The notes beneath the pieces are model-generated. The model was not told the origin of the DNA. It worked only from the letters and a program-made list of their open reading frames with translations, and did not search any database. The translations under genes and the position numbers were made by a program. A DNA stretch of 23,550 nt from a virus. The DNA lies in IMG/VR virus record IMGVR_UViG_3300005589_000108, positions 1 through 23,550 of that record; one strand, given 5' to 3'. Shown here piece by piece: positions 902-23,550 of the stretch (position 1 is the first letter of the stretch; each line of letters opens with the position of its first letter).

Positions 902-928
902 GTTTATGTTTTGGGTTTAAATTTCCAT

Positions 929-1097
929 AAATTCTTTAAACAATTGCTTGACAGAAAAACGAATTTTTCCCTTGTTATGTAACACTCACCACCCTAGGGT
1001 TGAGGCCCCCGCAAGCGGGGAACCCTAGAGTGTTGCCTGCCAGCATAACGGCGGCGCTTAGGCGAAATTCCCTGTAAAGCAATTCTTTCATGAATTT
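929..1097 (-). ncRNA. Structured intergenic RNA element, copy 1 (homologue of 12217-12374)
   Basis: On the minus strand this stretch folds into one long rod. Helices from outside to inside are: AAATTC/GAATTT (1097-1092 with 934-929), AATTGCTT/AAGCAATT (1084-1077 with 949-942), ACAG/CTGT, GAATTT/AAATTC, GTTATG/CATAAC (1049-1044 with 979-974), AACACTC/GAGTGTT (1034-1028 with 987-981), CTAGGGTT/AACCCTAG (1028-1021 with 1001-994), and an apical CCCCG-CTTG-CGGGG hairpin. It begins 9 nt after the stop of the 79-aa gene and ends 28 nt before the ATG of the 121-aa gene. It shares TAAGCG, CTTG loop and GGTGGTGAGTG motifs and the helix order with the + strand copy. An RNase III site, a translation element or a small RNA are all possible. 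Confidence 0.7.
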
Positions 1098-1105
1098 ACT
1101 TGTTA

Positions 1106-5184: not shown

Positions 5185-5271
5185 TAGGCTTTCCCGTTTA
5201 TTTTCGTGTTTTCCTTATTATTTTCATTCCCTCTTTTCATAATAACCCAATTCCTTTCCTAACAAATAACA

Positions 5272-5351
5272 TAACCTTTCCTAACATCCATTTTGGCCCC
5301 TCCTGGCTACAATCCTAATCCTAATCGACCCCTTAAAACACTCAAACTACG
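5272..5351 (-). repeat. Left arm of imperfect inverted repeat
   Basis: The + strand of this arm shares ordered blocks with the reverse complement of 5575-5656: TAACCTTTCCT, CCAT, CCCCTCC, AATCCTAATCG, CCCCTTA, CACTC, AAAC and CG. The blocks keep the same order over about 80 bp with small indels. Outside it (5229-5285) two ~22-bp units carry GTTAGGAAAGG on the minus strand, continuing the similarity to the right side. It appears to be a diverged duplication facing the opposite way. Confidence 0.7.
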
Positions 5352-5417
5352 TTTTGAGGCCAATCAAGGCATGATTTTACTCTTTTTCACTCTATTTAAT
5401 CTTACTCTATAGGAATA

Positions 5418-5480
5418 TAGACCCCACCCAAAATTTTAAATACAAATTATATTCTTCTAATTTCTTTATAGGGGGGTCTA
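5418..5480. repeat. AT-rich core bounded by TAGACCCC / GGGGTCTA
   Basis: TAGACCCC (5418-5425) and GGGGTCTA (5473-5480) are perfect inverted repeats. They enclose about 47 bp that are almost entirely A/T. To the left, TTACTCT-type boxes occur at 5377, 5387 and 5402; they are inverted copies of the AGAGTAA part of the right-hand repeats. An easily melted segment between symmetric boxes is what a DNA unwinding element looks like. Confidence 0.5.
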
Positions 5481-5484
5481 ATCT

Positions 5485-5570
5485 ATTGGTGTATATAGAG
5501 TAATATTGATCGGTGTATATAGGGTAATATTAATTGGTGTATACGGCGGTATTGTATTGGTGTATAAACC
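5485..5570 (+). repeat. Four ~24-bp direct repeats (iteron-like)
   Basis: The core ATTGGTGTATA recurs at 5485, 5509, 5533 and 5556 (spacing 24, 24, 23). Units 1 and 2 agree at 21 of 24 positions, units 3 and 4 are more diverged, and the last is cut short. Spacing of about two helical turns would place bound proteins on one face of the DNA. Candidate binding sites for a phage initiator or regulator. Confidence 0.7.
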
Positions 5571-5574
5571 AGAC

Positions 5575-5656
5575 CGCGTTTAGAGTGCTCTAAGGGGGCA
5601 AGTACGATTAGGATTATGGTAGGGAGGGGTGAAATCCCATGGAAGGAAAGGTTAGG
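5575..5656 (+). repeat. Right arm of imperfect inverted repeat
   Basis: Counterpart of 5272-5351, in the opposite orientation. It includes TTAGAG-TG-CTCTAA, a small perfect hairpin next to the G-run at 5593-5597. The left arm has a comparable CTCAAA/TTTGAG hairpin in the same place, so hairpin position is kept although the bases differ. Confidence 0.7.
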
Positions 5657-5698
5657 TTAGTTGTTATGTTAGTTGTTAGGTTATATGTTAGGTTATTA
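5651..5698 (+). repeat. Four 12-bp direct repeats, GTTAGGTTA-type
   Basis: GTTAGGTTA, GTTATGTTA, GTTAGGTTA and GTTAGGTTA start at 5651, 5663, 5675 and 5687, exactly 12 bp apart. They lie immediately outside the right arm of the inverted repeat. Related GTTAGG and GTTATGTTA words occur in mirror orientation left of the left arm. Confidence 0.8.
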
Positions 5699-5867
5699 TC
5701 TTCCATGTTTTCTATTCCCTGTTGTTATTAAACATTGGTATGTTGTGCTAGTACCGCGTAATTTGCCAAAGAAATGACGGTTTTGTTGCGAAATCCCTGA
5801 TTTATCCAGGAAAACCATTTATTTTTCGTTTATTTCGGTTTATTTCCTTGAATCGCTAGCAATCGGC

Positions 5868-5892
5868 TTGACACCTGCTATACTTATATATT
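5868..5892 (+). promoter_or_regulatory. Probable rightward promoter, extended -10 type
   Basis: TGCTATACT (5876-5884) matches an extended -10 element. TTGACA at 5868-5873 is present but too close to it (5 nt) and 13 nt from an alternative TATATT (5887-5892), so the usual -35/-10 spacing is not met. The strong ribosome site and structured leader that follow support transcription starting here; exact start uncertain. Confidence 0.45.
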
Positions 5893-5934
5893 GGTGGAGC
5901 AATTCAGCCCCACCAGCCAACCGGCCCCAGGGCC
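5892..5934 (+). promoter_or_regulatory. Structured GC-rich 5' leader of the 269-aa gene
   Basis: TGGTGG (5892-5897) pairs with CCACCA (5910-5915). A second small hairpin, GGCC-CCAG-GGCC, follows at 5923-5934, just before the AGGAG ribosome site (5937-5941). Stable 5' hairpins are known to protect abundant phage mRNAs; that role is inferred here. Confidence 0.45.
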
Positions 5935-5946
5935 ACAGGAGACAAC

Positions 5947-7042: not shown

Positions 7043-7074
7043 CCCTGGTATTTAATTATACCGGGGTTTTTTTT
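7043..7074 (+). terminator. Strong intrinsic terminator
   Basis: CCCTGGTAT pairs with ATACCGGGG (one G-U pair) around a short A/T loop and is followed by eight T residues (7067-7074). It closes the transcription unit 5947-7014. Confidence 0.92.
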
Positions 7075-7426
7075 GCTTGGTAGTTCTAAGTACTTGTTTT
7101 GCAAGGGGAAATTGCTCGCTTCGCTCGGTCAATGAGTGCTTCGCACAACTAATTTGATAAGAGCGTCAAGGAATCCTTCGGATGCTATTGAAGTCAGTCA
7201 TTGCATTCCTTCTGGTGGTTCGCTTTGTATAGTTGAAGGGGGGACTTACCCCCCATTTGTGAGCACGCGCCCCCCTCAATAAATCCTCTACCACGCATTT
7301 TCCCTAAACTTTAAACAATAAAAAAAATTACAACAAAAAATTACAATAACAACAAAAAACAAAACTAGGTTATTAACCATGTTAATAACTTCCTCAAACA
7401 ATAAAGTGCGTGGAATGATAAATAGC
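7075..7426. other. Non-coding gap with hairpins and an A/C-rich tract
   Basis: No gene is supported. The first part has several small inverted repeats: CTCGCTTCGCTCG (7115-7127), whose reverse complement recurs at 8302-8314; GTGC-TTC-GCAC at about 7136-7146; ATCC-TTC-GGAT around 7170-7182; and a perfect GGGGGG-ACTTA-CCCCCC hairpin at 7238-7254. Then about 65 bp (7310-7366) consist almost only of A, C and T, mostly short A-runs, before the operator palindrome at 7369-7389. Confidence 0.6.
7369..7389. promoter_or_regulatory. Operator-like palindrome, copy 2
   Basis: GTTATTAAC-CAT-GTTAATAAC repeats both half-sites of the palindrome at 235-254, with a 3-bp instead of a 2-bp centre. It lies 37 bp upstream of the -35 box of the promoter for the packaging genes, a distance like that of copy 1 from its promoter (33 bp). 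Confidence 0.6.
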
Positions 7427-10319: not shown

Positions 10320-12212
10320 ATGGCAACAGGAAAACCTAAACAGAAAGTTCAACTCAACCCCGAACTTTCAATTTCACTTGAGAACCACAACAAATTACTT
10401 TCTCATTGTACTCAACGCCTGGATATCGGAAAAGAGTACATGAATCCACAAATTGACAAGTTTGAATGGATTGACCGGGAAATTGCCGGGTATTTGATTC
10501 CGGACGCGGATGATGCGAAACGGGAAAGTGACAACAAGAAGGGCTTTGGCCCGAAACCTACAGATACAACGGTGGGTTTTATTGTCTCCCAAATCGACGA
10601 AGCGATTACGTTTTTGCTTTCCGTCCTGGCCCCGGATGAAGGAATCTATTCTGCGATTGCACCGAAAGAGAAACAGAAAGTTGCGGCCGGATTTGCAGCT
10701 GTGATGAATCGGCATGACAAACTGTTCGGGCATTATCCGAATTATGCGATTGGCCTTTTCAACGCAATGAAGTATAATTTCACTGGCTGGATTCCGGAAT
10801 GGCAAACAGTTACAGGAAATAAAGTAACAAATGATGATGCCGGACTTCCACGTGTTATTCCAAATGAGGAAATCTTTTCCGGTAACGCGCATGATGTAAT
10901 TGATCCATATAATTTCTTGTTTGACAATTCATGCCACCCAACTGAACTGTACAGAAAAGGCGAGTGGTTTGCCTGTGTTGAACGCAAGACACGTTTTCAA
11001 CTAGAACGCATGGCAGAACAGAATGAGATTTTTGATATTGAAAGATTCATTGATCTTGACATTCCTGTGAAAACGTATCACAGAATCCGGCCGGAAATTC
11101 GGGCCGATCAATTTGAAGCAACAAAAACAGATTGGTTTGCTACACTTTCTGCAAACACAATTACACATGCAGCACCAAACAAAGGCTTTGAGATTGTCCA
11201 TAAATACATTTGGATAAAAGAAGCCGATTTTGGAATCTCTACAAAGAAAGAGTTTTCCATCTGGCGCATTGAAATTGTAAACGGTAATTTCATTACGGCA
11301 GCTTTTCCGCAGAAGAATGCACATGGATATTTGCCGATTGGAATAGCAATGCCACTGGATGACCAGTTTTTCCCGCAGACAAAATCCTATGGGGAATGGC
11401 TCATTCCTTATCAGCGGTTTGCAAGTTTCCAATTGAATACACATCAGCGTGCAAACCGCAAAGCTCTGGGTGGGTTAACGCTTTTCAATGAGCATTTCTT
11501 GCCCGGGTTGAAAGAGCCGGATGTGGATTTGGCAGGCGGGAAAATTGGATTTAAAACAACGGATACACAGTTTGATGTACGAAAAGCCTTTGTCCAGGTT
11601 TTTGACGGTCCAGACACGCAGTATGCTCTCCGGGATATTGAAGCCGTGTATCAATTCATGCAACAAGTTCTTCCAACGGATACATTGCGACAAGTTGCAA
11701 ACCTGGATCGCGCAACGCAATACCAGGCAGCCGCCACTGTGCAGGGGTCAAATCGCCGCAATCTCAAGATCGCTAAAATCATAGACTCGCAAGCTTTGTC
11801 AAAAACGCGGCCTATGATGATGTACAATATCTTTGAGTTTCAGGAATCAATGGAAATTCTGGATGAACAAGGAAATATTATTGAAGTTAATGTGAAGGAA
11901 TTCCGGGAAACAATGTTGGAATTCCAGATTCATGCTGGGTTGCGTGGATTAGATCAGTTAGCTTTGATAATGCATGTGAAAGAAATCCTGAATATGATTC
12001 TTCAGAATCAAGATGCTGCGGCAACTTTTGATGTGCCAGCAATCATCAATTGGTTTACATCAATGCTTGGTGATAATTCAGATTTCACACAATTCGAGAA
12101 TAAGAATGCCTGGGATTCGATGAGTGAAGAACAGAAGCAGGCCGCATTTGGTTTGTTTCAGCAGGCTTTGCAGGAACAACAAGCTGGGCAACTTCCTGGT
12201 GCACCAGCTTAA
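10320..12212 (+). CDS. Portal (head-to-tail connector) protein
   Basis: Dodecameric ring at the capsid vertex through which DNA enters and leaves. The call rests on length (630 aa, typical of podovirus portals), its place between the large terminase and the scaffold/capsid genes, and its general make-up. The N-terminal domain is helical; the mixed wing region carries many aromatic residues (YPNYAIGLFNAMKYNFTGW, PYNFLFDNS). The long helical stretch near 430-500 (VYQFMQQVLPTDTLRQ) could be the stem and crown. The C-terminus is Gln/Ala-rich (EEQKQAAFGLFQQALQEQQAG). Ribosome site AAGAGGAATTAATTC. A small CGGGA/TCCCG hairpin lies in the 68-nt gap before it. Right after its stop begins the structured RNA at 12217. 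Confidence 0.88.
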   Translation: MATGKPKQKVQLNPELSISLENHNKLLSHCTQRLDIGKEYMNPQIDKFEWIDREIAGYLIPDADDAKRESDNKKGFGPKPTDTTVGFIVSQIDEAITFLLSVLAPDEGIYSAIAPKEKQKVAAGFAAVMNRHDKLFGHYPNYAIGLFNAMKYNFTGWIPEWQTVTGNKVTNDDAGLPRVIPNEEIFSGNAHDVIDPYNFLFDNSCHPTELYRKGEWFACVERKTRFQLERMAEQNEIFDIERFIDLDIPVKTYHRIRPEIRADQFEATKTDWFATLSANTITHAAPNKGFEIVHKYIWIKEADFGISTKKEFSIWRIEIVNGNFITAAFPQKNAHGYLPIGIAMPLDDQFFPQTKSYGEWLIPYQRFASFQLNTHQRANRKALGGLTLFNEHFLPGLKEPDVDLAGGKIGFKTTDTQFDVRKAFVQVFDGPDTQYALRDIEAVYQFMQQVLPTDTLRQVANLDRATQYQAAATVQGSNRRNLKIAKIIDSQALSKTRPMMMYNIFEFQESMEILDEQGNIIEVNVKEFRETMLEFQIHAGLRGLDQLALIMHVKEILNMILQNQDAAATFDVPAIINWFTSMLGDNSDFTQFENKNAWDSMSEEQKQAAFGLFQQALQEQQAGQLPGAPA

Positions 12213-12216
12213 TGAG

Positions 12217-12374
12217 AAATTTTCACGGGTTGACAGGTTGATCGCGCGTAAGCGGGGCAAATATACTGCCTTGGCGCTCCAAGGTTTCCCGGCTTGCCGG
12301 GGGATCAGCCTTGGGGCGGTGAGTGCCTTATATCTGCCCTTCGATCAAATTTTCCTGTCATACCCTTAAAATTT
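12217..12374 (+). ncRNA. Structured intergenic RNA element, copy 2 (after the portal gene)
   Basis: About 158 nt fold into one rod: AAATTTT/AAAATTT (12217-12223 with 12368-12374), GGGT/ACCC (12227-12230 with 12362-12365), TGACAGG/CCTGTCA (12231-12237 with 12354-12360), TTGATCG/CGATCAA (12238-12244 with 12342-12348), GGGCAAATATA/TATATCTGCCC (12255-12265 with 12329-12339, one mismatch), GGCGCTC/GAGTGCC (12273-12279 with 12321-12327), CAAGG/CCTTG (12280-12284 with 12309-12313), and apical CCCGG-CTTG-CCGGG (12288-12301). It starts 5 nt after the portal stop and ends 13 nt before the next ATG. Helix order, the U-rich 3'-side bulge (ATTTT), TAAGCG and GGCGGTGAGTG match the minus-strand copy at 929-1097. 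There is no U-tract, so it is not an ordinary terminator. Family not recognised. Confidence 0.75.
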
Positions 12375-12386
12375 TGGAAATCGACA

Positions 12387-12650
12387 ATGAATCAATATGA
12401 ATTTAGTTCTCTTAATCCAGAAGAACGAACAATTCTTTTGGATGTTCCACACAATACAATTTTACGTCAATGTCTTAATAGGGCAAAGGAGGCAGTTAAA
12501 CAGCAACGTCTAGATTTAAATCCTGAATCTTTTAATGATAGTGATTTTAAATTAAAATTTGCTGTGTTAAAAGAACGTGAATCAGTGTTAAATGAATTTC
12601 AAGATTTTCTTGAACTTGTACTTACAGACTTTCAAAAACGTCATCTTTGA
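12387..12650 (+). CDS. Hypothetical 87-aa helical protein between portal and scaffold
   Basis: I start at ATG 12387 (MNQYEFSSLNPEERTILLD). The frame is open back to 12294, but that part would translate the structured RNA. Only a weak GGA precedes the ATG. The sequence is predominantly helical, with heptad-like spacing in CLNRAKEAVKQQRLDLNPES and in LKERESVLNEFQDFLELVL, so a small coiled-coil or helical bundle is likely. Codon use is AT-rich like the genes that follow and unlike the portal. A gene here in other podoviruses may encode a small head-assembly or connector accessory. Family not recognised. Confidence 0.75.
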   Translation: MNQYEFSSLNPEERTILLDVPHNTILRQCLNRAKEAVKQQRLDLNPESFNDSDFKLKFAVLKERESVLNEFQDFLELVLTDFQKRHL

Positions 12651-12664
12651 TTTGGAGAAATATT

Positions 12665-13426
12665 ATGTCATTTTTTAATCGTGGTCCTGCACCTGCTGCA
12701 AATCCTAGTCCGGCGCCTAATCCTGCACCGGCTGCTGATCCTGTAAATCCTAATCCAGATCCTGGTGGTGAAAATAACCAGGAGAGTAACCTTCCTCTTA
12801 ACACAAATATGTGGGATAATATTAAAAGTGGAAATGAAAATTCACCTGGAAATCCACCTGCACAACCTGCACAACCTGTTGCACTTCCACAACAAACGGT
12901 TTCACCTGATGAGGCGATGCAGCAGCATATTGCATCTTTGGATTTAAATGCAAATGTAGATTTACAAGCAATTTCAACTGAATTACAGGAAGGCAAAACA
13001 GAAGCGCTTCAGGCGGCTTTTGATAATATGTCAGCAAATACATATAAAGCTGCTGTATTAAATACAAACCGTTTAATGGAAACAAAAATAGCTGAAGCAG
13101 TTGAGACAGCTGTTAAGCAGGCAAATGGAACGGTTAATGCAAATCTTGCTGAACAGGAAATGCATAAAATGATTCCAATGACGTCACAGCCTGATGTTTC
13201 ACCGATTGCGAAAGCTGTATTAACGAAGATGATTGAAAAGTCTGGTTCCGTTAGTGAAGCGATTCAAGGTGTAGAAAAGTTTTTTAAAGCTGTTTCAAAT
13301 GCTGGTGCAGAACAGTTTACGGATTTACCTGTTAATCAACCGCGGCCTGGTCAAGATCCATTTGGCAATAACCCGCAACCAAAAGTTGATGACGATTATT
13401 ATTTAGATCTTTTATCGGGGTCGTAA
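12665..13426 (+). CDS. Putative scaffolding protein
   Basis: Expected to guide assembly of the major capsid protein and to leave the mature head. The call is based on position (between portal and major capsid), length (253 aa) and composition. Residues 1-45 are a Pro/Ala/Asn low-complexity tract (NRGPAPAANPSPAPNPAPAA and more), and a second Pro/Gln stretch follows (PPAQPAQPVALPQQ). Then comes a long helical, Ala/Glu/Gln-rich segment without aromatic residues. The C-terminus is acidic (DDDYYLDLLSGS) and could be the capsid-binding end. ATG 12665 is preceded by TTTGGAGAAATATT, a good ribosome site, better than the upstream ATG at 12647. No serine protease motif was seen, so a separate or absent maturation protease is likely. 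Confidence 0.72.
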   Translation: MSFFNRGPAPAANPSPAPNPAPAADPVNPNPDPGGENNQESNLPLNTNMWDNIKSGNENSPGNPPAQPAQPVALPQQTVSPDEAMQQHIASLDLNANVDLQAISTELQEGKTEALQAAFDNMSANTYKAAVLNTNRLMETKIAEAVETAVKQANGTVNANLAEQEMHKMIPMTSQPDVSPIAKAVLTKMIEKSGSVSEAIQGVEKFFKAVSNAGAEQFTDLPVNQPRPGQDPFGNNPQPKVDDDYYLDLLSGS

Positions 13427-13511: not shown

Positions 13512-14687
13512 ATGGCCGTAAAAGGTGTATTCGCTTCCGACCAGAACATTCAAGGTACGCGAAAAGGGGATTTTGCATCTGCACTTTTGCAGATTGATCC
13601 AACTGGATCAGCTCCGTTGCTTGCATTGTCGTCTGGTATGGAATCAATTGGTGCTGTTGATGTTGTTGTTCACTGGTTTGAAGAAAATCATATTTCAGGC
13701 CGTGATACGATAACGAACAACGCTACAACTGGAACCACACTTGTTTTTGGTGATGGGACTTCATATGTTGCTGGTACAATCTTATTGATTGAAACTACTG
13801 GTGAGTATGTTTACATTGAATCCATTACTGGTTCTTCTGCAACTGTTAAACGTGGTCTTGGTGGAACTACTAATACTTCCATTAATGGTTCTTCAACTGC
13901 TGTTCCTTGTCAGCGTATTGCCACAGCTTACGAAGAAGGTTCTGCGAAACCTACTTCTGTTGCGAATATTGGTTATCCGCGTTTCAATTACATGCAGAAC
14001 TTCCGTAATGCATGGGATGTAACTGGTACTGCAAAAGTTGTTGAATATCATACTGGTAATCTTGTAGCAAAGAACAAGCGTGATGCTGCGCTTTTCCACG
14101 CTGAAGACATGGAACGTGCTGTCATTTGGGGTAAAAAGGATATTGGTGTAATGAATGCCAAACCTTTCCGCTTGATGGATGGTATTCTTTCTCAGATTAC
14201 GACAAATGTGACTGCACAGTCTACAAATGTTGAATGGGATGACCTGGATGGTTTCTTGCAGACAATTTTTGAAAAGAATATCAAGGGCAAGCCAAATGAA
14301 CGCATTGCTTTTTGTGGTAATACTGTAATTAGTGTTATCAATAAGATTGCGCGGTTGGAAGGTACCATTGATATTGCTGTTGGTCAGACTGATTTTGGTT
14401 TGGAAGTGAATAAGTGGCGTACGCCTTATGGTTCTGTTACATTGATGACTCATCCTTTAATGAATGAATCTCCACTTTGGACAAAAGATCTTATGGTCTT
14501 GCATCCTGGTGCAATTCGTACGCGTTGGTTGCGGCGAACAATGGAAGATAATTATGATAAGGACGGTACACGTGCAGGAGCAGATGCTGATTTTGGTGTT
14601 TTGACTTCTGAGATGTGTGTTGAATATCGCGCTGAAGTTACTGGTGGTCTGTATACTGGTATTGATACTGCTGTGGTAACGTCTTAA
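13512..14687 (+). CDS. Major capsid protein, SU10/DUF5309-type HK97 fold
   Basis: Forms the icosahedral or elongated shell. The sequence resembles the DUF5309/SU10 major capsid family. An N-terminal arm is followed by a beta-rich insertion (about residues 60-135). The HK97-type core follows: RFNYMQNFRNAWDVTGTAKV, then a spine-helix-like stretch (NLVAKNKRDAALFHAEDMER) and the A-domain near the end (FGVLTSEMCVEYRAEVTGG). 391 aa is normal. Ribosome site TTTTGAGGTAATTAAAC in a T-rich 70-nt leader; the next gene has a closely similar leader. Codon use is strongly biased to T-ending codons, as expected of the most abundant late protein. Identity is well supported by position and family resemblance. 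Confidence 0.87.
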   Translation: MAVKGVFASDQNIQGTRKGDFASALLQIDPTGSAPLLALSSGMESIGAVDVVVHWFEENHISGRDTITNNATTGTTLVFGDGTSYVAGTILLIETTGEYVYIESITGSSATVKRGLGGTTNTSINGSSTAVPCQRIATAYEEGSAKPTSVANIGYPRFNYMQNFRNAWDVTGTAKVVEYHTGNLVAKNKRDAALFHAEDMERAVIWGKKDIGVMNAKPFRLMDGILSQITTNVTAQSTNVEWDDLDGFLQTIFEKNIKGKPNERIAFCGNTVISVINKIARLEGTIDIAVGQTDFGLEVNKWRTPYGSVTLMTHPLMNESPLWTKDLMVLHPGAIRTRWLRRTMEDNYDKDGTRAGADADFGVLTSEMCVEYRAEVTGGLYTGIDTAVVTS

Positions 14688-15044: not shown

Positions 15045-15548
15045 ATGTCAGACATGAATGAAAATTCAAAGACGTATATTTCTGTGCAACATCCAAAATT
15101 GAAATTTTCAATGGTTGTTGCGGGAAGGAAAGAACGGTTTGCTTTTGAAAATGGGCAACTTGCGCTTTCAGACCCAGCAGAAATTGAAGCACTTGATGCA
15201 GAGTTGATTCGTCCAAAATCAACTCTGCATCGAATGATTCGTGTTGTGAGTTTTGAGGCTGCTGAAGCAATTGTAAAAGAATTGCAAGATAGTTTGCCGA
15301 AAAATATTGTTACTCGTGGTGGTGCGACAACTGCTGCGATGGATGCAATTCGTAAACAATCGCAAGAAAATGCAGAAGCGAAGCTTCGAGCACAAGGACT
15401 TTCTGAAGCAGAACTTAATGCTTCACGTGAAGCGCTTGAAAAAGAAGATCTTGTAGTTACGGAAACAGTAGAAGATCCTGGTGCGGGGAAAGTAACTGTT
15501 TCTCCAAAACAGAATTTTGATTTTTTGAAATCTGATACTTCAAAATGA
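15045..15548 (+). CDS. Hypothetical structural/head protein, 167 aa
   Basis: The N-terminal 55 residues (HPKLKFSMVVAGRKERFAFE, then NGQLALSDPAEIEALDAEL) follow a pattern common in small phage virion proteins: beta-strand, Phe-x-Phe, Gly, then an acidic EIEAL helix. The rest is helical and charged, with a long Ala/Glu coiled-coil-like stretch (ENAEAKLRAQGLSEAELNAS). Ribosome site TAAGGAGTCAAAT. Its last four bases overlap the adaptor gene (ATGA), so the two are coupled. The gene contains a perfect 15-bp hairpin at 15195-15231. A head-completion or decoration role is possible; precise function unknown. Confidence 0.75.
   Translation: MSDMNENSKTYISVQHPKLKFSMVVAGRKERFAFENGQLALSDPAEIEALDAELIRPKSTLHRMIRVVSFEAAEAIVKELQDSLPKNIVTRGGATTAAMDAIRKQSQENAEAKLRAQGLSEAELNASREALEKEDLVVTETVEDPGAGKVTVSPKQNFDFLKSDTSK
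15195..15231 (+). repeat. Perfect 15-bp intragenic hairpin
   Basis: GATGCAGAGTTGATT and AATCAACTCTGCATC are exact reverse complements around a 7-base loop (CGTCCAA). It lies inside codons for LDAELIRPKSTLHRM of the 167-aa gene. No T-run follows, so it is not a standard terminator. It is the longest perfect stem found in the window. Confidence 0.95.
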
Positions 15549-19581: not shown

Positions 19582-20384
19582 TGGCAAAACGTGTTCAACA
19601 TATCGGTCATGCTACAGCTACTGCACTTGTTTTTACTGGGCTTGAACGTGAAATTACTGTCGATACGTCAAAGAAAACTATACGTGTTCATGATGGCTTG
19701 ACGAAAGGTGGTTTTGAATTAGCTCTTGCATCTGGTAGTAATATTCAGCAAGCGACTGCACTTGTAGATGGTATAATGACGGCTGTACAAGTTGTACAGC
19801 TTGATGCAGCAACAGCAGATATTCTTGTTAATGCAGGTTTGATTGCAACACAGAGTACATATATTAACTTGTTATTTACAATAACAAATAATACAACCGT
19901 TCAACAAGATATTAATACAGCAAAACTTGCTACAATTGAATCAGGTGCAACAGCTGATCAAACTAAAGCAGATATTGATGCATTAGGAATTAATGCAGCT
20001 TTAATTGACAGTAAAAATGCAGCTGATTTTGCATGGCGTGCAAATAATCTTTCTGATCTTGGAAGCGTTGTAACAGCAAGAAGTAATCTTGGGTTAGGAA
20101 CAGGTGCCGTTCGTAATACGTATTCTGGTTCAATTGATGGACCCACAGGCAATGCAATTTATGCGTTACCTGTGGGAATTAGTTGTGTACGTACAGGAAC
20201 GGGACAATATCAAATTACACATAATTTTGGAACGACGAATTATGTAGTTAATCTTACGGCGTTAGCATATACATCGCCTTATATTCTATCAAAAGCAACA
20301 AATTCTTTTATTGTTCGTATAATTAATCCTGTTAGTCATGCGCAGGTTGATTCTGATTTTGATTTTTTTATTGATAAGGCTTAA
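19581..20384 (+). CDS. Tail fiber protein, 267 aa
   Basis: N-terminal virion-binding domain: the segment FTGLEREITVDTSKKTIRVH followed by DGLTKGGFELA is the usual phage fiber pattern (GEIGVDTTxNTLRVHDG). The middle is a helical or coiled shaft with IESGATADQTKADIDALGI, then NNLSDLGSVVTARSNLGLGT, a motif repeated in many tail fibers. The C-terminal part is a beta-sandwich (QITHNFGTTNYVVNLTALAY). Starts on the last base of the nozzle stop (TAATG). The protein may join the nozzle to the large adhesin encoded next. Hairpins occur at 19782-19800 and 20142-20176. Confidence 0.83.
   Translation: MAKRVQHIGHATATALVFTGLEREITVDTSKKTIRVHDGLTKGGFELALASGSNIQQATALVDGIMTAVQVVQLDAATADILVNAGLIATQSTYINLLFTITNNTTVQQDINTAKLATIESGATADQTKADIDALGINAALIDSKNAADFAWRANNLSDLGSVVTARSNLGLGTGAVRNTYSGSIDGPTGNAIYALPVGISCVRTGTGQYQITHNFGTTNYVVNLTALAYTSPYILSKATNSFIVRIINPVSHAQVDSDFDFFIDKA
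19782..19800 (+). repeat. Intragenic palindrome, 9-bp arms
   Basis: GCTGTACAA-G-TTGTACAGC is an exact inverted repeat. As RNA it gives a 7-bp stem with AAGTT loop. It lies inside the tail fiber gene. Confidence 0.75.
20142..20176 (+). repeat. Intragenic hairpin with long stem
   Basis: CCCACAGG (20142-20149) pairs exactly with CCTGTGGG (20169-20176). The interior continues with AATGCA/TGCGTT (one G-U pair) after one C·A mismatch, closing an ATTTA loop. About 14 pairs in all, within the 3' third of the tail fiber gene. Confidence 0.8.
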
Positions 20385-20386
20385 TT

Positions 20387-23300
20387 ATGGCATTTACTGC
20401 TGAAGAAGAAGCTGCTCTTCGTGAACTTTTGGATCGAGTTGATGTTAGTCAAACGCTTCAGAATCTTTATCTTTCTGATCCTATTCTTGCAAATAATACA
20501 AAATTAAAATTATTGCTTGGCGGATATAGTGTTGCGGATGGAAAAGATTTTGGTTGTACAGAACAGCAATTAATAGCAATTATTGCTCCGTTGTTGGGTA
20601 CGTCTCCGCCTGTTGAAGAGGAAGTGTCTGCATTTATTGTAACAATCAATGATAATACATTAATTGCAAATATTAATCCTGTTACAGGGATTGATTATGA
20701 TTATTGGATTGATACTGTAAATGACGATGTGGAGCCAGTTTTTCCAACAGGATTTACACAAGGTACTGCACCAACAAATAAGACATTAAGCACTTGGGTT
20801 GCAGAAATTTGGCATCGATATGTGTATAATACAGTTACAAGTACATTAACTGAGATACTACGTCAGGATGGTGGTAGGGGGATTACGATAACACCTGTTG
20901 ATAGCATCGTAGACATAGCTGTCACCGATTTAACATTAATCGCGGGGGCTAATGCACCGACGCAAATAATCTATGAGTTCGATACAGGGGCTGATAACGG
21001 AACAGGCATTGACCATTACGATCTGTGCTTTGCCGGTACTCAAACTGAATTAGTTACGGCTGCGGTTAGAGGTACACCAACAACAGTATCATCGCTGGTC
21101 CCCTTGGATGCCAACGAAGACGCAAATGTTTATTCCCTATGGGTTAGGATTACTGATGTCGCTGGTAATGTATCATTAGAAACTAAAAGCCTAACTGTTG
21201 ATATCACAATGGGGGCGCCGCTTGAGATAACGGCCTTCAGTGTTGACGATGACACAGACGGGGCTCCGTTCACATCAACTGTAAATTTAACGCTGCCTGC
21301 TGGGATGGATGAGATAATCCTTCAGATAAGTGATTCCACAACTCCAAGCGATGGATCGTCATCGTGGGCTGCTGCACCAGCCGATATAACTTTTACTGGT
21401 TTGGGAGTTTATGACGTTTATGCTTGGGGGAGGGATGCAACATTTCCAACTGGCATCAGTCCGATGGAATCGGCTTTAAGCGTAGCCGTTACTGATGCTG
21501 GGGCCAGCGGTGTAATTCTTCAATTCGCTGAAACATCATCAACCATTAGTGAAGAAGGCGCTCCGGCCCATGCTGTAGAAATAACCCGATCAAATGTAAC
21601 TGCCGGGGCTGTTAGCTGCACAATAAACGCAACCGCAGCAACAGATGTTCCAACTGCTGTTGCTGGAGAGAACTATCAACCGATTAGTAATATTGAAATA
21701 GCTATTGCTGATTCGGTCATTACTGTCGATCAGATCGTAGATATTCTATATAACAGGATTCCGCCAGGGCAATCCTTAGCCTTTGATCTGACACTGTCAG
21801 CGCCAGTCGGGGCTACGTTGGGTTCAAATACTGTTCATAGGGTCACTATCCAGCCGACGAATGGCTACTGGTCAACAGGTGATGTGGATTGGAATTATCC
21901 TCCGGCACTCCCTATTTCAGGCGCGATAAGCCCTGCAAGCAGTTCAACTGTTTCCGGATTTAAGATTGATGGGGGAGCAATTTCAAATATATGCGTCAAC
22001 CTTACCGGGACCACTGGAGTAACGATTGAAAATTGTGAGATAACAAACGCACGAAATTATGGAGTATTCCTACAGAATACGCAGAATCTAACGCTGCGTA
22101 ATTGTTATATTCATGATAACTGGGCTGGCGATGTTTTTGATAGGTTGGGCTATAACATCATGTTCGACGGTCAGAGTACTACAGATATTCAGAATATAGA
22201 TATCCTGGGTAATCGGATGGAGTGGAGTTCTGGCGGCATTCGCTTGTACTTGTGTAAAACAATGTCTGATGTTGTGATTGAGAATAATCACATGGTTGAC
22301 GCAATCCGTCATTCAAATGAGGGCCAGCACTTATTTGCTACAAACTGTTCTTGGGGAACAACGCCTCCGGTATTTCGTAGAAACAAATCAATCTTCTCAG
22401 TCAACCCGTTAGCTAATGGTGAAGACCATATAAACTTTTTTAAGTCTGGGAAGGGCAGTGGTGGAACGCCAGCAATTATAGAACTGAATTATTTCAAAGG
22501 CCAATCGCTGAGTAATGGCTCAGGAGCAACGTTCCTCGTTGGAGATAATGCAAGAAATCTAGCCGAAGGGAATTCACTTATAAAATACAACACATCTATA
22601 GAAAGTGGTGTAACTGGCATGGCTCTTATGGGAGGGGCCGATCAGAAATGTCACTACAATGATGGGTGGATGCCACCAGATTCGATATTTGTTGTTAAGG
22701 GAGAGTTACCAGGAAATAGCGCGGTTGGTGGTGTTATGCAGCGATCTGTACAAACGCCAAGGGGTGAATTCGATGATGCTGAATTTGGTGGGAATCGGAT
22801 GTGTTGGTATACCGATTTTAACACAGGGGCAGGGGCGCAGCTGAATAATTATTGGCGTCCAAATATAGGGGCAGATGGGTTTACGCCCAATCATGGAACA
22901 TACGCTGACCCGGTATCAGCCGAAACTGACGTTATTGGTTTCGATGACTCGCAAACAAATATCTCTATGCACGATGGAACTAACCAATTTAGTGAAAACT
23001 GGACCACATCCGGGGATATGTGGGTACAGGGGCGACATGAAATACTAACTCAACCTGCTATTGATGAAGGGATTGAAGTTATGTATTCATCCCAATCGTG
23101 TCCTGTTGGAAATGGCATTCTTACATACATTGATTCAACGACCAGCGTTACGTTCCAGGCCTATGGGGAGAGTGCTGGGGCCGCTGTTGATATATCGACA
23201 CCGGAATGGGATGACGGGACTGAAGATAATGATACCTGGCATGTGTTTTCTAGTAGTGGGGCATATGTACGAATATTGGTAACTGCTGCTAGTCTTCCTG

Positions 23301-23550
23301 GAGCCGATACGAATTGGACGATTAAGGTTACTAGGTTTGAAAAGGATGAGGTTATCCTCTATCCAGGTGTAACAGGACTGTGGACTGGATCAACTGGAAC
23401 AACTCCACCGGCTGGCAATGATCCAACTGTGCCAGTTATCACAGATCCTATCCCTGCCGGGACGATCACTGAAGATACCATAGTAGTCGATTGTTCAGCT
23501 TCAACTGCATCTCCAGCGGTAGGTGGATATGAGTGGTTTAGGAATGACGT
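20387..23550 (+). CDS. Giant modular tail adhesin (receptor-binding protein), partial at right edge
   Basis: The frame is open from ATG 20387 to the window end (1054 codons, no stop). Residues 1-75 are helical (EEEAALRELLDRVDVSQTLQ) and likely attach to the virion. About 80-155 is a compact domain. About 179-275 and 279-371 look like Ig/fibronectin-type beta-sandwiches (YSLWVRITDVAGNVSLETKS). About 375-487 resembles a Calx-beta domain (FAETSSTISEEGAPAHAVEI). About 520-770 is a parallel beta-helix: repeated GVTIENCEITNARNYGVF, then NLTLRNCYIHDN, then IDILGNRMEW, as in pectate-lyase-like tailspikes. The region after it is beta-rich, and a PKD/Ig-like domain begins near 1015. Probably binds or degrades a host surface polysaccharide; catalytic residues cannot be assigned by eye. 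Codon use shifts sharply near codon 160. Confidence 0.85.
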   Translation, partial: MAFTAEEEAALRELLDRVDVSQTLQNLYLSDPILANNTKLKLLLGGYSVADGKDFGCTEQQLIAIIAPLLGTSPPVEEEVSAFIVTINDNTLIANINPVTGIDYDYWIDTVNDDVEPVFPTGFTQGTAPTNKTLSTWVAEIWHRYVYNTVTSTLTEILRQDGGRGITITPVDSIVDIAVTDLTLIAGANAPTQIIYEFDTGADNGTGIDHYDLCFAGTQTELVTAAVRGTPTTVSSLVPLDANEDANVYSLWVRITDVAGNVSLETKSLTVDITMGAPLEITAFSVDDDTDGAPFTSTVNLTLPAGMDEIILQISDSTTPSDGSSSWAAAPADITFTGLGVYDVYAWGRDATFPTGISPMESALSVAVTDAGASGVILQFAETSSTISEEGAPAHAVEITRSNVTAGAVSCTINATAATDVPTAVAGENYQPISNIEIAIADSVITVDQIVDILYNRIPPGQSLAFDLTLSAPVGATLGSNTVHRVTIQPTNGYWSTGDVDWNYPPALPISGAISPASSSTVSGFKIDGGAISNICVNLTGTTGVTIENCEITNARNYGVFLQNTQNLTLRNCYIHDNWAGDVFDRLGYNIMFDGQSTTDIQNIDILGNRMEWSSGGIRLYLCKTMSDVVIENNHMVDAIRHSNEGQHLFATNCSWGTTPPVFRRNKSIFSVNPLANGEDHINFFKSGKGSGGTPAIIELNYFKGQSLSNGSGATFLVGDNARNLAEGNSLIKYNTSIESGVTGMALMGGADQKCHYNDGWMPPDSIFVVKGELPGNSAVGGVMQRSVQTPRGEFDDAEFGGNRMCWYTDFNTGAGAQLNNYWRPNIGADGFTPNHGTYADPVSAETDVIGFDDSQTNISMHDGTNQFSENWTTSGDMWVQGRHEILTQPAIDEGIEVMYSSQSCPVGNGILTYIDSTTSVTFQAYGESAGAAVDISTPEWDDGTEDNDTWHVFSSSGAYVRILVTAASLPGADTNWTIKVTRFEKDEVILYPGVTGLWTGSTGTTPPAGNDPTVPVITDPIPAGTITEDTIVVDCSASTASPAVGGYEWFRND

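Follow-up and report, generated by a model that had tools for sequence, protein, structure and literature searches.

What is the strongly folded stretch of DNA that lies between the portal gene and the capsid genes of this phage, and why is it present a second time in the leftward operon? The window, by which we mean the whole stretch analysed (23,550 nt), is a virus record of 23.5 kb and comes from a tailed phage, whose genes are arranged in two divergent blocks. The leftward block includes a Dda/exonuclease V-like helicase, and the rightward block the large terminase, portal and major capsid genes. On the plus strand, the order is portal, element A, an 87-aa gene, a putative scaffold gene and the major capsid gene (Table 1); Pfam searches with the 87-aa gene and with the putative scaffold gene gave no match. 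The portal stop (12212) and the start of the 87-aa gene (12387) are 174 nt apart, a gap largely occupied by element A, and element B is found in a gap flanked by the minus-strand ORFs 1106-1450 and 536-901. Both are intergenic, lie in sense with their own operons, and cover most of the stop-to-start gap. The size of the element is about 130 nt (core) to 170 nt.

Elsewhere in the window, two inverted arms of 105 nt each, at 5242-5346 and 5580-5684, lie in the divergent intergenic region (5185-5946), with 72% complementarity between them, and a 24-nt unit is repeated in tandem near 5485-5532; this may be a promoter/origin region. From 20381 to 23550, a single reading frame stays open for over 1,050 codons and runs past the end of the record; it probably encodes a tail or fibre protein. 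A sequencing adapter suspected near 22,740 was checked for and is absent.

Table 1. Coordinates of the elements, of their parts and of the neighbouring genes (window positions unless another record is named).
Feature	Position	Strand	Remarks
Portal protein gene, 5′ of A	10320..12212	+	PHROG 15554 portal, E 7e-21
Element A, whole structured RNA	12216..12375	+	fold -78.7 kcal/mol; covariance-model match 12233-12360
A, foot helix P1a, 5′ strand UUGACAGG	12230..12237	+	partner CCUGUCA 12354-12360
A, helix P1b, 5′ strand UUGAUCG	12238..12244	+	partner 12342-12348; covarying
A, mini-hairpin P2, CGC-GUAA-GCG	12245..12254	+	in three-way junction; kept in A, B and C
A, helix P3, 5′ strand	12255..12265	+	partner 12329-12339
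A, helix P4, 5′ strand GGCGCUC	12273..12279	+	partner GAGUGCC 12321-12327
A, helix P5, 5′ strand CAAGG	12280..12284	+	partner CCUUG 12309-12313
A, terminal hairpin P6, CCCGG-CUUG-CCGGG	12288..12301	+	CUUG loop invariant
A, 3′-side bulge GGGCGGU	12314..12320	+	GGGUGGU in B, GGCGGAAUU in C
A, U-rich 3′-side bulge AUUUU	12349..12353	+	GUUUUU in B, AUUUU in C
87-aa small gene, directly 3′ of A	12387..12650	+	homologue in L020, 69%
Putative scaffold gene	12662..13426	+	basis: location 5′ of capsid gene
Major capsid protein gene	13512..14687	+	PHROG 1328 major head protein, E 6e-36
Element B, second copy	929..1097, core 949-1075	-	model built from B finds A and C
B, U-rich bulge GUUUUU	955..960	-	
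B, 3′-side bulge GGGUGGU	988..994	-	
B, terminal hairpin P6, CCCCG-CUUG-CGGGG	1007..1020	-	
B, mini-hairpin P2, CGC-CUAA-GCG	1055..1064	-	
Element C, third copy, related phage fragment L020	L020:5329-5459		orthologous site 3′ of portal gene
L134 structured element			in slot
Type 2 elements	L139:8705-8848, L121:3538-3672, L125:3319-3455, L303:1501-1615		5′ of same small gene, four phage lineages
Covarying structured pair	L128:4930-5053, L131:7920-8043		directly 3′ of portal gene
PaMx41 gap (L304)	record 7074-7248, 175 nt		before gp10; z -5.4

A fold shared by copies A, B and C

A preliminary description of this DNA had claimed that one fold occurs twice in the phage, with compensatory base changes in its helices. 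The helices that it named were all found where it had placed them. A (12209-12380, plus strand) and B (920-1104, minus strand) gave dinucleotide-shuffle z scores of -6.5 and -5.0 respectively, and 0 of 200 shuffles folded as well in either case. A covariance model was then built from B only, entered as two identical B rows, so that A could not influence it. This model recovered A at E 4e-19, and also detected, at E 8e-18, a third copy, C, in the fragment L020 of a related phage, whose portal is 88% identical to that of the window phage. With a simple ORF caller, all co-directional gaps of 100-420 nt were taken from 34 loci (the window and relatives); by folding energy per base, the gap with C came first and that with A second.

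In the A/B/C alignment, which was fitted to the structure of B and is therefore biased towards pairing, standard pairs made up 99.2% of the base-pair cells, compared to 82.9 +/- 2.9 in shuffles, and pairing fell to 37-47% when the partners were slid by 1-3 columns. Both sides had changed in 19 of the 40 pairs (7.3 in shuffles), and none of 500 shuffles matched the standard-pair fraction or the count of two-sided changes. Between any two of the copies there are 12-13 double compensatory changes against just 2-3 single ones, and the fitting bias does not account for so many double changes. Three sequences being few, no significance is claimed for individual helices. We conclude that A and B encode the same RNA fold, that its compensatory changes are real, and that C is a further homologue with covarying helices.

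From its base, the element consists of outer helices, P1a, the U-rich bulge, P1b, a three-way junction carrying P2, the P3-P4-P5 arm and P6. The outer helices are AT-rich and pair in A, B and C, with a sequence that differs in each copy. P1a is UUGACAGG/CCUGUCA in A and C and weaker in B, its ACAG/CUGU part being invariant across the three. Two-sided changes affect 4 of the 6 modelled pairs of P1b and 5 of the 7 pairs of P4. The arm has a 5′-side internal loop starting with CUG, and also the 3′-side bulge GGGCGGU, GGGUGGU or GGCGGAAUU. The three-way junction and its small hairpin CGC-NYAA-GCG had been overlooked initially: most of what was described as an unpaired TAAGCG is in fact the 3′ side of this 3-bp hairpin, CGC-(GUAA/CUAA/GCAA)-GCG, and reads CAAGCG in C.

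The same description held that unpaired bases are kept while stems vary. For the CTTG loop this is correct, since CUUG and its closing G-C pair are invariant in the three copies, and the U-rich bulge of 5-6 nt on the 3′ side was found in each of them. The GGYGGTGAGTG stretch is kept in part: it is not unpaired throughout, but made of the bulge plus one helix strand, and neither its GAGTG nor the bulge end is kept in C (GGCGGAATTGGGG). As a general rule, conservation of loops over stems did not hold, as A and B are identical at 28 of 45 unpaired columns and at 51 of 80 paired ones, which is no higher for the unpaired. Conservation goes by blocks, namely ACAG(G), CGC-NYAA-GCG, CTG, CCNG-CTTG-CNGG, the UUUU bulge and CTGTCA. 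Pairing of the GGYGG bulge with the 5′ junction strand, as a pseudoknot, is feasible in B, and was by inspection inconsistent in A and C.

Probable selection as RNA, and extent of the type

In all seven elements compared (A, B, C, L134, L128, L131 and L139), folding is better for the sense strand than for the antisense, and G-U pairs number 38 in sense versus 13 in antisense; the L303 and L121 elements lean the same way, by just 2-3 kcal/mol. Since G-U pairs can benefit only the RNA of the strand in question, selection most likely acts on the fold of the transcript, as RNA and not as a DNA cruciform. This strand bias in stability and G-U pairs also argues against a mobile hairpin element (MITE- or ERIC-like) or a DNA palindrome, in which the fold would be a by-product of terminal inverted repeats. 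Such an origin would agree with the two copies per genome, with their lack in most of the relatives searched, and with the repeated foot TTGACAGG/CCTGTCAA. But interior and outer helices both covary, which insertion alone does not explain, A and C occupy the same site, and searches of viral, plasmid and bacterial sequence gave no further copy, so that we regard it as quite unlikely. Integron attC sites have a foot of consensus GTTRRRY/RYYYAAC; the foot of the element misfits it, and this assignment was rejected.

In A and B, promoter matches did not exceed the chance level, and the sense strand showed no terminator. A sigma-70 promoter that would use the TTGACA of the foot was discarded for want of a matching second hexamer. 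An intrinsic terminator or attenuator acting between the portal and capsid genes would account for a strong hairpin in an intergenic gap, and a T run does follow the rod in C. However, the foot is AT-rich, neither A nor B is followed by a U-tract or gave a terminator-like site in sense, and essential capsid genes lie downstream with no promoter detected, which makes termination highly improbable.

The type was then followed in other genomes. Exact DNA patterns, which diverged copies would escape, found true matches among viral contigs only in this phage (L012 and L013; the phage is present as several near-identical records) and in L020. Those of the other viral matches that were examined failed the fold, position or covariance-model checks. 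Model R1 had no match in 38 loci of more distant relatives, and model R2 none in 18 full records besides this phage itself; R2 gave nothing significant either on 80 of at least 120 pattern stretches from bacterial and archaeal genomes. Nothing useful came from blastn with A and C against phage records, nor with B against plasmid records. As far as searched, this phage and a single close relative are therefore the only carriers of the RNA type of the window.

The element had also been described as a new-looking RNA family, and this stands: in Rfam 15, searched at E up to 10 with the three copies and with a representative of each of four further types, the scores were sub-threshold throughout, and those of A, B and C at chance level, with no family match. 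With the whole window, at E up to 1, only two sub-threshold matches were returned, both outside A and B. These weak scores coincide with a 24-nt inverted repeat (15186-15240, 88% complementary, 7-nt spacer) located in a gene shortly 3′ of the capsid gene. Among known RNAs, a self-cleaving ribozyme splitting the messages unaided would suit a junction with conserved loop blocks and two sense copies placed between genes. No Rfam ribozyme was matched, however, the HDV score of 14 bits in B being chance against a gathering score of 50, and strictly conserved unpaired positions are few and vary among A, B and C; we consider cleavage of this sort decidedly unlikely.

Occupants of the slot 5′ of the small gene

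In many relatives (e.g. L102, L103, L124, Tiera, EBPR podovirus 3 and VS-ABTNL-3), the portal stop overlaps or nearly touches the next gene, which means that the element is dispensable for such a gene order. In several relatives, among them L134, the slot 5′ of the small gene is occupied by different strongly folded elements. Those of type 2 come from four phage lineages (Table 1) and are also present in L118 (with L139) and in L126 (with L125). Their core GUUAGGCUAC...GAGCCGUAAAC is found in three of the four, and their foot is TTGACWAGGG...CCCCTTGTCA. Model R3, built from L139/L118, L121 and L125/L126, detected the independent L303 member at E 2.7e-6, and this member likewise lies directly 5′ of the small gene. 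The covarying pair of L128 and L131 precedes lysis-type genes and not the small gene, and has a conserved inner loop, GGTAGYGCARCGGACGG.

A further folded gap was found in PaMx41, a Pseudomonas phage of the Fredfastierviridae, where it precedes a small gene (gp10), followed by the structural gene in scaffold position and the major head gene. By position, and by position only, gp10 corresponds to the small gene of the window. This 175-nt gap, which bears no RNA annotation, is shared by a total of 16 Pseudomonas phage records at 98-100% identity, PaP2 and 119X included; PaMx41, PaP2 and 119X are cultured phages of Pseudomonas aeruginosa.

Do these elements descend from one ancestor? Model R2, of the window's type (type 1), gave 6 bits on L134 and 0.3 bits on L131, model R3 (type 2) had no match to A, B or C, the type 2 elements likewise escaped the type 1 model, and the PaMx41 element was missed by both. 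Types 1-3 have a common foot, TTGAC...GTCA, and type 2 resembles the PaMx41 element around a purine bulge that precedes CCCC, two likenesses noticed after the fact. The shared slot position and foot of types 1-3 are only suggestive of common descent. As no test of common descent was passed, the slot is treated here as one recurrently holding structured RNA in related phages, and no single family is assumed.

A candidate role at the capsid cassette, and known systems

Its location, its sense-strand bias and the lack of promoter and terminator signals suggest that the element is a part of the mRNA itself. We tentatively propose, as the most likely function, that it acts in cis between cistrons, to separate or stabilise the mRNA of the capsid cassette. 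The element would be transcribed within a polycistronic phage mRNA, and the rod with its basal three-way junction would be bound or cut, the simplest candidate being an RNase III-type enzyme acting at the double-stranded foot. A stable structured end would be left behind, and would uncouple the message of the portal, needed in few copies, from the abundant scaffold/capsid message. Copy B would play the same role between two genes of the leftward operon. Transcription, processing or protection, and the effect on expression are steps that we infer. In phage T7, RNase III processing hairpins placed between genes, in sense, divide the polycistronic mRNA. The present element has the same intercistronic position and orientation and, once presumably transcribed, the extended double-stranded structure of an RNase III site. 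The T7 sites are shorter, and differ from the present element, which keeps a mini-hairpin, a tetraloop and bulges under selection.

Four points run counter to this proposal. The element is dispensable for this gene order, as the many relatives with touching or overlapping genes indicate, copy B is not adjacent to structural genes, an RNase III site alone needs no conserved mini-hairpin, CUUG hairpin or bulges, and the other slot types have no demonstrated homology to that of the window. The simplest reading is that of a boundary for processing or stability, and our confidence in it is at most moderate, because the location of copy B (beyond a general segmentation of operons) and the conserved small motifs are left unexplained.

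The arrangement of the two copies recalls another phage system. The put RNA of phage HK022 suppresses termination by binding RNA polymerase. A and B are two related elements in sense, one per divergent operon as putL and putR are, and a nascent RNA of this kind could bind the polymerase and allow terminators to be read through. Yet put RNAs are ~70 nt long, comprise two stem-loops and lie close to early promoters (PMC9378689), whereas the present elements are single rods of 130-170 nt with a junction, located some 4 and 6 kb away from the divergent intergenic region and not next to a promoter. Processive antitermination of the put kind thus appears rather improbable.

A different role is suggested by the loops. 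Between the P2 loop, (G)YAAGC, and the P6 loop, GCUUGC, complementarity extends over 6 nt in A and C and 5 in B, one stem nucleotide counted, and the U-to-C change in the P2 loop of C converts a wobble into a Watson-Crick pair with the P6 loop. Under a simple null, runs of at least 5 occur in ~2.5% and runs of 6 in 0.5% of random loop pairs, figures that apply to loops picked after inspection and to a run that includes the closing stem nucleotides of both hairpins. The complementarity hints at loop-loop contacts, and could be due to chance.

The pRNA of phi29 is a part of the prohead packaging motor, and is needed for DNA packaging. By analogy, the rod could be excised from the mRNA and become a free structural RNA acting in trans, for instance of the packaging type, assembling near the portal through loop-loop contacts. 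Like phi29-type pRNA (Rfam Phage_pRNA), the element combines a three-way junction, U bulges (here the U-rich bulge of P1), loops that may be able to pair and a strong structure kept while the sequence diverges, and A and C adjoin the gene for a part of the motor. Against this, the complementary run of 5-6 nt borrows closing stem nucleotides and shrinks to only 3 nt in L134, the phage has an ordinary large terminase, no match to pRNA was found in Rfam, and the element lies inside operons, in two differing copies per genome, of which B belongs to a different operon. A trans-acting RNA is in our view unlikely. Less likely again is its wider version, namely a class of capsid/portal-module RNAs, excised and acting in trans by loop-loop contacts, with a packaging or assembly role analogous but unrelated to that of phi29 pRNA, and with fast-evolving slot variants across the phage group, cultured Pseudomonas phages included.

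Whether as the intercistronic boundary that we favour or as an RNA with a part in head assembly, the element matters as an uncatalogued covarying RNA at the limit between portal and scaffold/capsid genes, where several relatives also have structured elements, one of them in cultured P. aeruginosa phages. It bears on how one late transcript yields very different protein levels, or on a possible role of RNA in building the head, and would add a new family to Rfam. Searches of the open-licence papers of PMC, the part of the literature covered, turned up no account of such an element, albeit this is not proof of absence. GOLLD and ROOL are ornate structured RNAs associated with phages, several hundred nucleotides long. 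The present element is, like them, a structured RNA in phages, but they are much longer, and it has no Rfam match. Compared to these systems, it is new as an RNA family, while a structured RNA in a phage operon is not new as a kind.
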